Position numbers and translations under genes: made by a program. Positions 6,149-25,871 of a stretch of 32,492 nucleotides of DNA are shown one piece after another. The notes under the pieces are model-generated. The model had not been told where the DNA came from and did no database searches. It saw only the letters and a list, made by a program, of their open reading frames with translations. Where the stretch lies: NCBI GenBank assembly GCA_016213575.1, contig JACRAB010000326.1:1-32492 (forward strand). Reading direction: 5' to 3'. The stretch comes from Actinomycetota bacterium (GTDB lineage Bacteria; Actinomycetota; Actinomycetes; Actinomycetales; Kineosporiaceae). Each line of letters opens with the position of its first letter. Position 1 is the first letter of the stretch.

Positions 6149-6174
6149 CCGGCTCCCGCCGGACCGTCCCGGGT

Positions 6175-6780
6175 TCAGTGCCGCACGCGGCCCCAGATCG
6201 CCAGCAGCCGGCGCGCCGCCGGCAGGTCGTCCAGGTCGCCCGGCAGTGGCCGTCCGGCCTCGGCCAGGCCGGTCATGCCTCGCCGCACCTCCCACGCGTG
6301 GTCCAGCAGGTCCGGCTGCCCGAGGAGGGAGCCCGAGACCTCGTCGTCGCCCACCAGGTCCCATCGGTGCACCGCCAGCTCGCTGCGCACGTGGGTCTGA
6401 AGCTGCCGGGCCGTCATGCCCCATCCCGTGAACGGCACCGTGCGTCCAGGGTCCTGGAGGTGGAGCCGGCCCAGGGAGGCGCCGAGGCGCGCCCCTTCGG
6501 TGAGGAGCATCGCCCGCACGTCGGCGTCCGCGGCCTCGCGCAGCGGTGCCTCACGCTCCTCGAAGCCCCGGGTCGGCGGGACGGGCAGGCCGGCCAGCGA
6601 CGCGTCGACGAGCCGGGTGATCTCCTGGGCGCCGGCCACCAGGTGCGCGAGCAGATCGTGAGCCGTCCACCCGGGGCACCATGTCGGTGCGCCGGGATCG
6701 ACGCCGTTCAACGCCGTCAGGAAGGAGACGAACTCCATCGAGGGTCGCACCGGGCCGGGCGTGGGCAGGTCGTCAGTCAT
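6175..6780 (-). CDS. Maleylpyruvate isomerase/DinB-fold family protein
   Basis: About 201 aa. The segment CPGWTAHDLLAHLVAGAQE is the characteristic N-terminal motif of the mycothiol-dependent maleylpyruvate isomerase (MDMPI_N, DinB-like four-helix) family, whose histidine helps bind a metal ion. A second histidine sits in RSELAVHRWDLVG, as expected for the third ligand. Family members are thiol-dependent (often mycothiol, an actinobacterial cofactor) transferases or isomerases; the substrate here cannot be read from sequence. The start is uncertain: GTG at 6786 opens the track ORF, but ATG at 6780 is more conventional and neither has a clear ribosome site. It is transcribed divergently from the aminotransferase gene at 6923. 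Confidence 0.8.
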   Translation of the reverse strand: MTDDLPTPGPVRPSMEFVSFLTALNGVDPGAPTWCPGWTAHDLLAHLVAGAQEITRLVDASLAGLPVPPTRGFEEREAPLREAADADVRAMLLTEGARLGASLGRLHLQDPGRTVPFTGWGMTARQLQTHVRSELAVHRWDLVGDDEVSGSLLGQPDLLDHAWEVRRGMTGLAEAGRPLPGDLDDLPAARRLLAIWGRVRH

Positions 6781-6862
6781 GCGCACTCAACGCGTCCGGA
6801 CCCGGGCGTGTGAGGGCGCCCGCTGCGGGACGGCGACGGCACGGAACCGGATCCGTGCCGGA

Positions 6863-8765: not shown

Positions 8766-8804
8766 CCTGTGGACGACGCCCGGGTGGCCACTGCCTGTGG
8801 ACGA
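8766..8804. repeat. Two 11-bp direct repeats CCTGTGGACGA
   Basis: CCTGTGGACGA occurs at 8766-8776 and again at 8794-8804, a 28-bp period, right after the lrp stop and upstream of the Uma2-type gene. Neither copy is in a coding region I can support. They might be regulator sites or remnants of a dispersed intergenic repeat. Confidence 0.5.
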
Positions 8805-8885
8805 AGCCGCTGCCCGTCCGTGGGTTCTGGCACGCTGCCGCAGTGGATCACGGACGACGTGACAGGTGCGGACCCGAGGGGGACC

Positions 8886-9443
8886 ATGGCGACCATGACG
8901 GTGATGCCGCGCGGAGTCGGGGAGTGGACCGTCGATGACGTCGACGCCCTGCCCGACGACGGCCTGCAGTACGAGCTGGTCGACGGGATGCTGCTCGTGA
9001 CGCCGGCTCCGACACCACGTCACCAACTGGCCCTGATGCGCCTGCTCGGGCAGCTCCATGACGCTGCGCAGACGGCGGACGCGCTTGTCCTGCCCGCTCC
9101 CGTCGACTGGCGACCGCACCGCCGGACGTCGCTGCAACCCGACATCGTCGTGCTGCGGCGGGCGGACTACGACCCTGAGCGTCTGACGCCGGACCTGCTG
9201 CTCGCGGTGGAGATCCTCTCTCCGTCCACTCGTCGCAAGGATCAGTTGCTCAAGCGGTCCGCCTACGAGGACGCCGGTGTCGCGTCGTACTGGATGGTCG
9301 ACCCTGCCGTGCCGTCGATCGTCGCGCTCGACCTCGTCGATGGCCGGTACGTCGTCACCGGTGAGGCCCGCGGCAACGAGGAAGTGCACCTCGAGCGGCC
9401 GATCCCGGTCACCCTCGTACCGACGGACCTGCTCCGGCCCTGA
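8886..9443 (+). CDS. Uma2 family (DUF820) nuclease-fold protein
   Basis: A 185-aa protein with the Uma2/DUF820 signature: YELVDGMLLVTPAPTPRHQ, then SLQPDIVVLRR (Asp86), LLAVEILSPSTRRKD (Glu109), and LLKRSAYEDAGVASYWMVDP (Lys123). These match the PD-(D/E)XK restriction-endonuclease-like fold, and the predicted catalytic residues are all present. The biological role of the family is poorly known; members are often numerous and horizontally spread. I chose ATG at 8886 because GAGGGGGA is just upstream and no homologous sequence precedes it. Codon use is slightly less GC-biased than its neighbours (for example caactg, ttgctc), a mild hint of recent acquisition. It ends 6 bp from the convergent nucleotidyltransferase gene. 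Confidence 0.9.
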   Translation: MATMTVMPRGVGEWTVDDVDALPDDGLQYELVDGMLLVTPAPTPRHQLALMRLLGQLHDAAQTADALVLPAPVDWRPHRRTSLQPDIVVLRRADYDPERLTPDLLLAVEILSPSTRRKDQLLKRSAYEDAGVASYWMVDPAVPSIVALDLVDGRYVVTGEARGNEEVHLERPIPVTLVPTDLLRP

Positions 9444-9449
9444 GGTCCT

Positions 9450-10229
9450 TCATCCCGCCGCGCTTCGCAGCAGCGCGAGCTCGCCACCCCAGGCGTCGAT
9501 CGTGCCGCCGAGCGTCGCGGCACCACGCGCGGCGTCGAACCGGCGGCACTCGCGCTCGACGACGGCGAACGCCGACCGCAACGCCGCTGATTCGCCGTCC
9601 AGGGTGGCGTCGAGCAGCGGGACGAGAGCGGCGGCCGACCACTCGGGGACGGTCAGCGGGTGCTCGGCGAGCTCCCAGGCGAGGTACTTGTTGTACGGGC
9701 GCACCCGCCCGGCCAGTGCGAAGACGACGTCGAGGAACCACGGCAGCGACTCCGCCGCGTCGAGCCGGCGCTCCCGCGGACGGCCGTCCCGGTCCGCCTT
9801 GAGCGCCCGGTAGGCGAAGTTCACGTAGCCGTCGAGCCGCGCTGCGAGGACGGCGTCCTGCTCGTCCGGGGTGAGTGTCGCCTGCCGCTGGACGGCGGCC
9901 GCGACCCGGCCGTCCGCGTCGTCGCGGAGCACCTGGGCCCAGGCGAACGACCACCGGTGCCACCAGCCGTCGGTGCCGAACGGCTCCGGTCGCTCGAGGT
10001 CGGCGAGCAGCACGGGGACCTCGTCGACCGCTGCGCTGCGCTGCACCTCGGTCGGGACGGAGCCGTTGCCCGGCAACGGGTCACGGACGACGTAGACGTC
10101 GACGTCCGAGCGGTGCGTGGCGAGGCCGCGTGCCGCCGAGCCGCTGAGCACGATGCCGACGACCGTCGGGTCGTCGCGGGCCAGGATCGCGGCGAGGGCG
10201 TCGCGGGCGGCGTCCGGCAGCCCGTTCAC
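9450..10229 (-). CDS. Nucleotidyltransferase domain protein
   Basis: A 259-aa protein with an N-terminal minimal nucleotidyltransferase (pol beta-like) core: GIVLSGSAARGLATHRSDVD, with Gly30-Ser31 and the metal-binding Asp42 and Asp44 (SDVDVYVV). The C-terminal half (for example AESLPWFLDVVFALAGRVRPYNKYLAWEL) is helical and resembles the partner domain of aminoglycoside-adenylyltransferase-like or DUF4037/DUF4111 proteins. The substrate is unknown, and I do not call it an antibiotic resistance gene. The GTG start overlaps the Nudix stop by 4 nt (GTGA), so it is the last gene of the minus-strand LON-YbaK-Nudix operon. Confidence 0.82.
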   Translation of the reverse strand: MNGLPDAARDALAAILARDDPTVVGIVLSGSAARGLATHRSDVDVYVVRDPLPGNGSVPTEVQRSAAVDEVPVLLADLERPEPFGTDGWWHRWSFAWAQVLRDDADGRVAAAVQRQATLTPDEQDAVLAARLDGYVNFAYRALKADRDGRPRERRLDAAESLPWFLDVVFALAGRVRPYNKYLAWELAEHPLTVPEWSAAALVPLLDATLDGESAALRSAFAVVERECRRFDAARGAATLGGTIDAWGGELALLRSAAG

Positions 10230-10711
10230 GCCGGCCGCACGCCGTCCGCGAAGGACGCACCGGGGGAGTCACCGAGCGCCACCGCGAGGCGCTCGAGGTT
10301 CGACGCGGACAGCGGCGGCAGAGCGTCCGGGGCGAACCACGCGACCTCGAGCGACTCGTCGTCGTTGACCCGGGCCTCGCCGGACAGCGGCGTGCACCGG
10401 AACGTCGTCACGACGTACGAGGCCCGGTCGCCGTTCGGGTACTCCATGGGCGGCACGGTCCAGACGCCGACGATCCGGTCCGGCCGCACGTGCACGCCGG
10501 TCTCCTCGAGGACCTCGCGGACGACCCCGGCGGCGACGTCCTCACCCGGGTCGAGGATCCCGCCGAGCAGTGCCCACCGGCCGGTGTCGGTGCGCCGGTT
10601 GAGCAGCACCCGGCCTGCGTCGTCCACGACGATGCCGCAGACCGCCGGCAGGAAGAGCAGGTCGGTGCCGACCTTCTCGCGCAGCCGAAGGACGTGCTCG
10701 GGCACGGCCAC
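10226..10711 (-). CDS. Nudix hydrolase
   Basis: A 161-aa protein. A complete Nudix box is visible at residues 51-73: GILDPGEDVAAGVVREVLEE followed by TGV, matching GX5EX7REUXEEXGU with the metal-binding glutamates intact. The N-terminus (LPAVCGIVVDDAGRVLLNRR) is the typical first strand. Family members hydrolyse nucleoside diphosphates linked to another group; the preferred substrate cannot be deduced. The GTG start is 1 nt after the YbaK stop, and the gene's own stop overlaps the nucleotidyltransferase start. Pairing with a nucleotidyltransferase suggests a nucleotide-related function, which is inference. Confidence 0.93.
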   Translation of the reverse strand: MAVPEHVLRLREKVGTDLLFLPAVCGIVVDDAGRVLLNRRTDTGRWALLGGILDPGEDVAAGVVREVLEETGVHVRPDRIVGVWTVPPMEYPNGDRASYVVTTFRCTPLSGEARVNDDESLEVAWFAPDALPPLSASNLERLAVALGDSPGASFADGVRPA

Positions 10712-10712
10712 C

Positions 10713-11195
10713 TCAGTGCCGCGCGATCGGCGCGGTACGCGCGCCCGTCAGCCGGACGAGGTCGGCCGGCGCCAGCTCGACGTCCACGCCGCGCCGCCCC
10801 GCAGAGACGAGGACGCTCTCGAACGCCAGCGCGGACTCGTCGACGACGGTCGCGAGCCGCTTGCGCTGGCCGAGCGGGCTGATCCCGCCGACGACGTACC
10901 CGGTCGCGCGCTCGGCGGCCGTCGGGTCGGCCATCGCGGCTTTCTTGCCGCCGGCCGCGGCGGCGAGCGCCTTGAGGTCGAGGTGCGCGTCGACGGGGAC
11001 GACGGCCACGGTGAGCGCGCCGTCGACGTCGGCGACGAGGGTCTTGAAGACCCGCTCCGCCTCGACGCCGAGGGCGAGCGCGGCCTCCTCGCCGTAGGAG
11101 AGCCCGCGCTCGTGGGCGCGCGGGTCGTGCTCGTACGCCCGGATCGTGTGCGGCACCTGCTGGGCCGTGAGCAGGACGGTCGCGGGAGTCCCCAC
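10713..11195 (-). CDS. ybaK: Cys-tRNA(Pro)/Cys-tRNA(Cys) deacylase YbaK
   Basis: YbaK/ProX-family trans-editing deacylase that removes mischarged Cys (or similar) from tRNA(Pro). From GTG the product is 160 aa: GTPATVLLTAQQVPHTIRAY, VFKTLVADVDGALTVAVVPV, LDLKALAAAAGGKKAAMADP, GYVVGGISPLGQRKRLATVV. The GGKK and GGISPLGQ segments are hallmarks of the YbaK pocket. The start is debatable. In frame upstream lies CTG AGC AAG AAG GCG AAG, giving (M)SKKAKDAVGTPA, which looks like a natural YbaK N-terminus; that CTG (11219-11217) would overlap the ancestral LON stop as CTGA. GTG at 11195 is the nearest standard start codon. The gene lies downstream of the amber-interrupted LON gene. Confidence 0.92.
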   Translation of the reverse strand: MGTPATVLLTAQQVPHTIRAYEHDPRAHERGLSYGEEAALALGVEAERVFKTLVADVDGALTVAVVPVDAHLDLKALAAAAGGKKAAMADPTAAERATGYVVGGISPLGQRKRLATVVDESALAFESVLVSAGRRGVDVELAPADLVRLTGARTAPIARH

Positions 11196-11215
11196 GGCGT
11201 CCTTCGCCTTCTTGC

Positions 11216-11359
11216 TCAGTTGGAGCTCACGCTTCCCTTCGTCAGGTCGGTCGCCGGCAGGCAGCGGAACGCGGTGATGAGGGCGCGCTCGCGCTTGAGC
11301 AGCCCGATCTCGGCGGCGAGCCGGTCCGCCGTCGTCGGCTCCTCGAGGAGCCGCTGCCG
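11216..11359 (-). pseudogene. Detached C-terminal 47 codons of the LON-domain gene
   Basis: Directly after the TAG at 11362-11360, the same reading frame continues without interruption for 47 codons to a TGA at 11218-11216: RQRLLEEPTTADRLAAEIGL, then LKRERALITAFRCLPATDLT and KGSVSSN. This looks like the normal C-terminal tail of actinobacterial LON-substrate-binding proteins (a LxLLxRExALI...LPAxDLTxxxxSxN pattern, recalled from the family). It therefore appears to be the end of the same gene, separated by one nonsense codon. It has no start or ribosome site of its own. Confidence 0.8.
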
Positions 11360-11875
11360 CTAGGGCAGGTCGAGGATGACCGCCGCGGCGACGAGGGAGG
11401 AGACGACGCGCGGGTCGTCGGGGAGCTCGGTGACGTCGACGTCGAGGACGGCCCGGTACTCGGCGAACTGCTCGACGACCCGGTCGGTGAGGGCCTCGAG
11501 GTCGCCCTCGCCGTCCGGCTCGTCGATGAGCTCGACGAGCCCGGTGAGGTACGGCGTCCCGGCGGCCTCGTCGAGGCCGACCACCCGGAACCTGCCCTCG
11601 CCGACGGTGACGATGTCGAAGCGCCCGTCGGAGTAGGGGGTGACCTCGCGCAGCTCGGCGATGCAGCCGACGGCGTGCAGCGCGGTCGCGTTGCCCTCGC
11701 CGACCTCGTGCCCGGTGCGGATCGCGACGATCCCGAACTGCCGGGTCGCCCCCTCGGGCAGCGCCATGAGGGCCTCGACGAGCACCCGGTACCGCGGCTC
11801 GAAGATGTGCAGCGGCAGCACGAGGCCCGGCACGAGGACCGTGCCCAGGGGGAAGAGCGGCAGCCGCGTCGCCAT
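11360..11875 (-). CDS. LON substrate-binding domain protein, truncated by an amber codon
   Basis: A 171-aa product as read. MATRLPLFPLGTVLVPGLVL, PLHIFEPRYRVLVEALMALP and FGIVAIRTGHEVGEG are the classic LON N-terminal substrate-binding domain, here without the AAA and protease domains, as in stand-alone YcaM-like proteins. These proteins are thought to act in protein quality control, but their partner is unknown. The frame is interrupted by TAG after LDLP and reopens for 47 codons, so the full ancestral gene would be 11216-11875. ATG at 11875 follows a TAGCCT box on the minus strand by 7 nt, so translation is probably leaderless. The sense-strand bases upstream are CCTCC, not a ribosome site. 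Confidence 0.85.
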   Translation of the reverse strand: MATRLPLFPLGTVLVPGLVLPLHIFEPRYRVLVEALMALPEGATRQFGIVAIRTGHEVGEGNATALHAVGCIAELREVTPYSDGRFDIVTVGEGRFRVVGLDEAAGTPYLTGLVELIDEPDGEGDLEALTDRVVEQFAEYRAVLDVDVTELPDDPRVVSSLVAAAVILDLP

Positions 11876-24112: not shown

Positions 24113-25849
24113 ATGCGCCGAACACGTCCTCGTCATGCCCGCCTCGTCGCCGCGGGGGTCGCCGTCTCCGCGAGCCTGATCGCGCTCGGGTCGCTGCCCG
24201 CACAGGCGGCCGCGAAGCCGGGACCGGTGAGCATCCAGCTTCTCAACGTCTCCGACTGGCACGGTCAGCTCGACCCGGTGACGCCGACCGCGGCCGGGGC
24301 GATCGCCGCGGTCCCGACCGGCGGCGCGCCGGCGCTCGCCGCCTACTTCGCGGCCGACCGCGCCGCCAACCCGAACACGCTGACGCTCACCGCCGGCGAC
24401 GCCGTCGGCGCGACGCCGCCGGTCTCGGCCTTCTTCGAGGACACCCCGACGATCCAGGCGATGCGGCTCATGCGGTTCGACGCCGACACCCTCGGCAACC
24501 ACAACTTCGACGCGGGCCTGGCCCGGCTGCAGCGCCAGATCGACCTCGCGCGCAGCGAGGACCCCACGGTCCCGGGCAAGCGTTTCCGGTACCTGTCGGC
24601 GAACCTCAAGAACGTCGACGACAACCTCGACCACGTCGACAAGATGCGGATCTTCACCGTCGGCGGCGTCAAGGTCGCCGTCATCGGGCTGACGAACCCC
24701 GAGGCGCCGGGCCTGGTCTTCCCCGGCAACTTCGGCACCATCACGATCACCGACCCGGTCGTCGCCGCGAACAAGCAGCGCCTCGCCGCTCGCAAGGCCG
24801 GGGCCCAGGTCGTCGTCGGGCTCATCCACGCCGGCATCGAGGGCGTCAACGCCCAGGGGCAGGCGTTCGGCCCGCTCGTGCAGTTCGCGACGAACGTCAC
24901 CGGCTTCGACGTCATCCTCGGCGACCACACCGACTTCCAGTACAGCGAGACGATCAACGGTGCGCTCGTCACCGAGAACCGCAGCAAGGGCGTGACGTAC
25001 AGCAAGGTCAACCTGTCCGTCGACCGCAAGCGCGGCGTCCTCGCCAAGAGCGCCACGTTCGTGCAGCCGGTCGTCAGCGGGGTCACGCCGGACCAGACCG
25101 TCGCCGACCTCGTCGCCGGCTACCGCACCCAGCTCGCGCCGATCCTCAGCACGCAGCTCGGCTCCGCCACCCGGGCCGTGCCGCGCTCCGACTCCTGCGG
25201 ACGCGCGGACGGGCGGCTCTGCGAGTCCCTCGTCGGGGACATCGCCACGGACGCGCTGCGGCTGCGCTACGGCACCGACTTCGCGATCACGAACGCCGGC
25301 GGCCTCCGGGCCGACCTGACCTGTCCCGCCGTCGACAGCGCGACCGACTTCTGCCCGGCGTTCACGCCGCCGCCGTTCACGATCACCCGCGGGCAGGTCC
25401 TCGGGGTGCTGCCGTTCGGCAACGTCGCGACGACGACGACCGTGTCGGGGGCCGAGCTGAAGACGTTCCTCGAGAACGGCGTGTCGGTCATGCCGGGAGC
25501 GAACGGCAGGTTCCCCCAGGTGTCGGGGCTGTGCTTCACCTACGACATCTCCGCCGCTGTCGGCAGCCGGGTGACGTCCGTCGTCCGGCAGGCCGCGGAC
25601 GGCACCTGCACGGGTCCTGCTGTCGACCTCACGGCCGCAGCGAGCTACACGATCGCGTCGAACGACTTCATGGCGAACGGTGGTGACGGCTACCCGAACG
25701 TCATCGGGCGGTCCGTGACCCGTGAGCTCCTCGACCAGGTGCTCGCCGACTACGTCACCGCGGCGTCCCCGCTGGCGCCGTCCATCCAGGGCCGGATCGT
25801 CTGCACGACGTCCGGTGCCGTCCCGTGCCCGGTGGTCACCGCGCCGTAG
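24113..25849 (+). CDS. Secreted 5'-nucleotidase/metallophosphatase
   Basis: 578 aa. ATG 24113 has GGAGG 6 nt upstream and begins a classical signal peptide (MRRTRPRHARLVAAGVAVSA, then ...LGSLPAQA-A); the track start at 23987 is too early. The N-terminal calcineurin-like domain shows LLNVSDWHGQLDP, TLTAGDAVGATPP, DTLGNHNFDAG and VVGLIHAGIEG. The last metal motif reads LGDHTDFQ, where GGHTH is more common. The C-terminal substrate domain shows TNAGGLRADL, GVLPFGNVATTTTVSGAELK and SNDFMANGGDGYPN. It probably hydrolyses nucleotides outside the cell for phosphate or nucleoside scavenging. No LPXTG or C-terminal anchor is visible, so it should be released. A strong hairpin follows. Confidence 0.93.
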   Translation: MRRTRPRHARLVAAGVAVSASLIALGSLPAQAAAKPGPVSIQLLNVSDWHGQLDPVTPTAAGAIAAVPTGGAPALAAYFAADRAANPNTLTLTAGDAVGATPPVSAFFEDTPTIQAMRLMRFDADTLGNHNFDAGLARLQRQIDLARSEDPTVPGKRFRYLSANLKNVDDNLDHVDKMRIFTVGGVKVAVIGLTNPEAPGLVFPGNFGTITITDPVVAANKQRLAARKAGAQVVVGLIHAGIEGVNAQGQAFGPLVQFATNVTGFDVILGDHTDFQYSETINGALVTENRSKGVTYSKVNLSVDRKRGVLAKSATFVQPVVSGVTPDQTVADLVAGYRTQLAPILSTQLGSATRAVPRSDSCGRADGRLCESLVGDIATDALRLRYGTDFAITNAGGLRADLTCPAVDSATDFCPAFTPPPFTITRGQVLGVLPFGNVATTTTVSGAELKTFLENGVSVMPGANGRFPQVSGLCFTYDISAAVGSRVTSVVRQAADGTCTGPAVDLTAAASYTIASNDFMANGGDGYPNVIGRSVTRELLDQVLADYVTAASPLAPSIQGRIVCTTSGAVPCPVVTAP

Positions 25850-25871
25850 CGCGGGCGCGCCGTCCGACGAC

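Follow-up and report, generated by a model that had tools for sequence, protein, structure and literature searches.

A private in-frame TAG in a LON-domain gene is most likely a draft-sequence error, otherwise a recent nonsense mutation

A LON-domain gene interrupted by an in-frame TAG

In the 32,492-nucleotide stretch of DNA analyzed here (the window), a gene for a LON substrate-binding-domain protein lies on the minus strand, with ybaK downstream of it in the same direction. The features of the locus, and the evidence behind each assignment, are as follows:

11360..11875, minus strand: LON substrate-binding-domain open reading frame as it stands, 171 amino acids, ending at the premature TAG (translation; Pfam PF02190, E 1.4e-26)
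11396..11398, minus strand: codon 160, with a private TAC to TCC change (Tyr to Ser; base 11397) (homologue comparison)
11360..11362, minus strand: premature TAG, codon 172; GAG (Glu172) in both close relatives (alignment with relatives)
11216..11359, minus strand: rest of the LON gene, 47 codons plus the TGA stop (11218-11216) (frame and homologue comparison)
10713..11219, minus strand: ybaK (Cys-tRNA(Pro) deacylase family), intact, from a CTG that overlaps the LON stop (TIGR00011, above cut-off)
11193..11195, minus strand: GTG that offers ybaK an alternative start, with GAAGGA ahead of it (sequence; the profile match starts two residues later)

In a profile search, the interrupted LON frame matches PF02190 with 94.1 bits (cut-off 28.7), and this domain match spans residues 5-165. 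The frame is 48 residues shorter than its homologues, and the coding sequence for what they possess is present past the TAG (11362-11360), where the same minus-strand frame runs on as 47 sense codons up to the TGA at 11218-11216. An open frame of 47 codons is by itself weak evidence in DNA of 75% GC; we assign the tail to the gene because homology shows that it belongs there. The original prediction, that the frame goes on past the TAG for 47 codons with the family's usual C-terminal tail, is in this respect confirmed by both relatives and homologues.

The stop is private to one genome

In the nearest relatives compared, Kineosporia sp. R_H_3 and A_224 (LON protein 98-99% identical), codon 172 is GAG, and in the tail that follows it the window departs from each of them in no more than one amino acid and five silent codons. 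Conversion of GAG to TAG takes a single G to T change on the coding strand, which corresponds to C to A on the plus strand at 11362. Examination of a broader set of homologues revealed that the codon-172 column is acidic in 96 of the 101 sequences with a residue there (65 Asp and 31 Glu, as opposed to 4 Val and 1 Thr), that none of them has a stop in this column, and that the tail past it is 44-50 residues long in all but one of 102 homologues. The sole exception, the LON gene of Micromonospora sp. ATA32 (L088), has a frameshift shortly before the same C-terminal region; apart from this frameshifted copy, no homologue ends at the site of the TAG, so the prediction of an interrupted gene stands. 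Because the tail is conserved and both relatives carry GAG, the tail truly belongs to the gene, and the TAG arises from a private single-base substitution, E172*, at a conserved acidic position.

Read past the stop, the gene has the length and C-terminal tail of stand-alone LON-domain proteins (PF02190), with which it shares about 40-70% identity across Actinomycetota, and it differs from them in the TAG at codon 172 and the Ser at 160. It is an ordinary gene of this kind, encoding about 219 residues. Aside from the stop, Y160S is the only private amino-acid change in the LON gene; it lies 35 nt from the TAG, at a position occupied by Tyr or His in 98 of the 101 homologues with a residue there and by Ser in none. 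Private changes are not dense near the stop, with one other within 60 nt.

Further in-gene stops and private substitutions in the draft

The assembly consists of 566 contigs totaling 5.9 Mb and is 88.59% complete, the window being contig C166. Scanning 0.876 Mb of this genome for stops with coding-like sequence in frame on both sides revealed five further clear in-gene stops besides that of the LON gene, all of them TAG. These are listed here under names that, as for all genes other than LON and ybaK, come from reading the translations, without a family search:

L117:12511, contig C165: TAG in the middle of gltB (glutamate synthase)
L230:7955, contig C157: TAG in a phosphodiesterase-like gene
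L210:300, contig C18: TAG in a molybdopterin oxidoreductase-like gene
L211:14286, contig C19: TAG in an ECF-sigma-like gene
L190:14900, contig C529: TAG in the third and last tandem repeat of a secreted-looking protein

At the four of these sites that could be aligned, the relatives carry TAC, GAG, GAG and TCG, and the sister repeats of the fifth carry Lys; with the LON gene included, the residues replaced are thus E, Y, E, E, S and K. That all of these clear in-gene stops are TAG is expected, because codon usage predicts that 76% of single-step nonsense changes here lead to TAG. As a control, 0.49 Mb of A_224 were scanned in the same way and yielded about one comparable interrupted gene. Taken by itself, the higher number of stops here does not reach significance (P about 0.09 when 6 are set against 0, leaving the one case in A_224 out of account).

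Inspection of the sequence around these stops showed that three of the five (gltB, L210:300 and L211:14286) belong to bursts in which conserved sites carry private substitutions. In gltB, three further private substitutions fall within 15 nt after the TAG and alter two amino acids, and many of the substitutions in the bursts at L210:300 and L211:14286 occur where both relatives agree. These bursts point to base errors in the assembly. Clustering of substitutions was rejected as a diagnostic in its own right, as four private substitutions within 16 nt are found in the relatives too.

Private amino-acid changes of a radical kind (BLOSUM62 score no higher than -2) were counted over 15,784 codons on three contigs that had been chosen because they bear a TAG; this genome has 38, compared with 13 in A_224 and 18 in R_H_3 (odds ratio 2.4, P 0.0004), and the numbers of silent changes are similar across the three genomes. 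Nonsynonymous private changes of the A>C/T>G type are also in excess on the same contigs (P 0.005). A generally raised error rate is not apparent in the window's total private-substitution spectrum, which agrees with that of the relatives; the only classes in excess are the radical and A>C/T>G nonsynonymous ones. The roughly 20,500 codons compared contain no clean private frameshift, unlike what gene decay usually produces; an apparent frameshift on contig C461 was traced to an N in the relative. The combination of substitutions without indels and of stops in core genes fits base errors in the draft better than ordinary gene decay.

Origin of the TAG

The original prediction offered a nonsense mutation, a sequencing error and readthrough as the possible origins of the TAG. 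This was the right set of options, from which readthrough drops back as unlikely. We consider E172* to be ordinary: in place of a new mechanism, the most likely cause is an error of the draft sequence and, failing that, a recent nonsense mutation.

The explanation that we favor, at a probability of roughly 0.55, is an error in the draft consensus: one wrong base would have turned the conserved Glu172 codon of the LON gene into TAG, and the living cell would keep a sense codon at 172 and probably make the full LON protein. Consistent with such an error are the GAG of both relatives and the conserved tail, the five further private TAGs, the excess of radical changes with no clean frameshift, the never-seen Y160S 35 nt away, and the incompleteness of a draft in which even prfA has been lost in a contig break. 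Weighing against it, private changes are not dense around the LON stop, the overall spectrum of private substitutions is unremarkable, the contigs used to count radical changes had been picked for their TAGs, and A_224 has about one interrupted gene as well; lineage-wide relaxed selection could be another source of the radical changes. Any stop or odd residue in this assembly accordingly calls for caution before it is accepted.

Slightly short of an even chance goes to a genuine and recent nonsense mutation, which would leave a 171-residue protein lacking its last 48 residues, probably unstable or inactive, and make the gene an incipient pseudogene; we infer the loss of function from the removal of 48 conserved residues. 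If the stop is real, this would be ordinary gene loss. The change is a single G>T step from GAG that is private to the lineage, and TAG is by far the nonsense type to be expected here. Six of the eight private codon changes in the LON gene are synonymous, indicating that selection held until recently, and Y160S could represent early decay. In 34 of the 58 related genomes searched, no LON-gene relative turned up, which means that its absence is tolerated within the order; on the other hand, the gene was found in 11 of 12 other genomes of the family, and the draft shows a general excess of radical changes, with stops in genes such as gltB. In comparison with nonsense pseudogenes and the in-frame bacterial stops surveyed in PMC7918605, the LON gene is alike in having a single sense-codon substitution private to one genome, and in that the disabling change is absent from its orthologues (GAG in the relatives, no stop elsewhere). 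It differs in that no second genome has the TAG and the base is known from a draft assembly alone.

Tests for readthrough or recoding

A third explanation, that the TAG is read through or reassigned by amber suppression and the full LON protein is still made, is very improbable. In-frame stops with signs of selection have been reported in bacteria (PMC7918605), the LON gene keeps an undamaged tail, and all the clear in-gene stops identified in this genome are TAG, although this last pattern is what codon usage predicts. Against readthrough, TAG is not avoided as a terminator, ending 12.4% of open reading frames here and 10.2% in A_224 (P 0.31); an excess of TAG terminators in a first, small comparison disappeared with a larger control. 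No tRNA with a CTA anticodon occurs among the 41 tRNA hits, a negative that is not absolute in an assembly that is 88.6% complete, and a 130-nt tRNA-like match considered as a suppressor proved to be a threonine-type tRNA with an insertion in its anticodon loop. The stop is not conserved at this site in relatives, and the residues replaced at the six TAGs do not correspond to one amino acid. Loss of release factor 1 was also considered, as prfA gave no profile match; the place of this gene, however, coincides exactly with the break that separates the end of contig C461 from the start of contig C339, indicating that its absence is an assembly gap. Least probable of all is that the lineage tolerates many in-gene ambers through partial suppression by a tRNA in the unassembled part of the genome, with gltB and LON products made at full length. 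Of these possibilities, the only one that would be a surprise is amber suppression on a wide scale in an actinobacterium, and the evidence runs against it.

Consequences for ybaK

The ybaK gene is intact and scores 174.6 bits against TIGR00011 in a profile search (cut-off 153.25), placing it among the YbaK Cys-tRNA(Pro) deacylases. Its probable CTG start (11219-11217) overlaps the LON TGA (11218-11216), as had been predicted; the overlap is common to both close relatives, and the CTG aligns with the MAKK/VAKK-like starts of more distant ybaK genes. This probable start overlapping the LON stop, seen only in these three genomes, sets their ybaK apart from other members of its family. Elsewhere in the family and order, the LON stop is followed by the ybaK start after 2 to about 75 nt or more, or this start is at another place; because the spacing varies in this way beyond the immediate relatives, tight coupling of the two genes is not a conserved trait.

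If the TAG is real, ribosomes would leave about 141 nt ahead of the ybaK CTG. The idea that this is polar on ybaK is possible but weak: a GTG lies 24 nt past the CTG, and a ribosome-binding-site-like GAAGGA of its own precedes it at a suitable distance (CAAGGA at the same site in R_H_3, GAAGGA in A_224), and the spacing is conserved only in the immediate relatives.

Additional observations

The threonine-type tRNA noted above (L163, C441:36505-36634; GGT) carries a 57-nt anticodon-loop insertion according to ARAGORN, and may be a tRNA remnant or an odd insertion.

Comparison of the window with the two relatives also revealed three differences away from the LON gene. Positions 8770-10246, with Uma2-like and nucleotidyltransferase-like genes, have no counterpart at this locus in R_H_3, in which about 80 bp separate the flanking sequences, and are unaligned in A_224 too. 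At about 6153-6861, neither relative has the minus-strand gene 6175-6786 at this place, and the sequences on its two sides almost adjoin in both. Finally, a nucleotidase-like gene at 24146-25870 is conserved with R_H_3, but in A_224 it has diverged strongly, with 133 private amino-acid changes, which looks as though recombination had replaced the A_224 allele.
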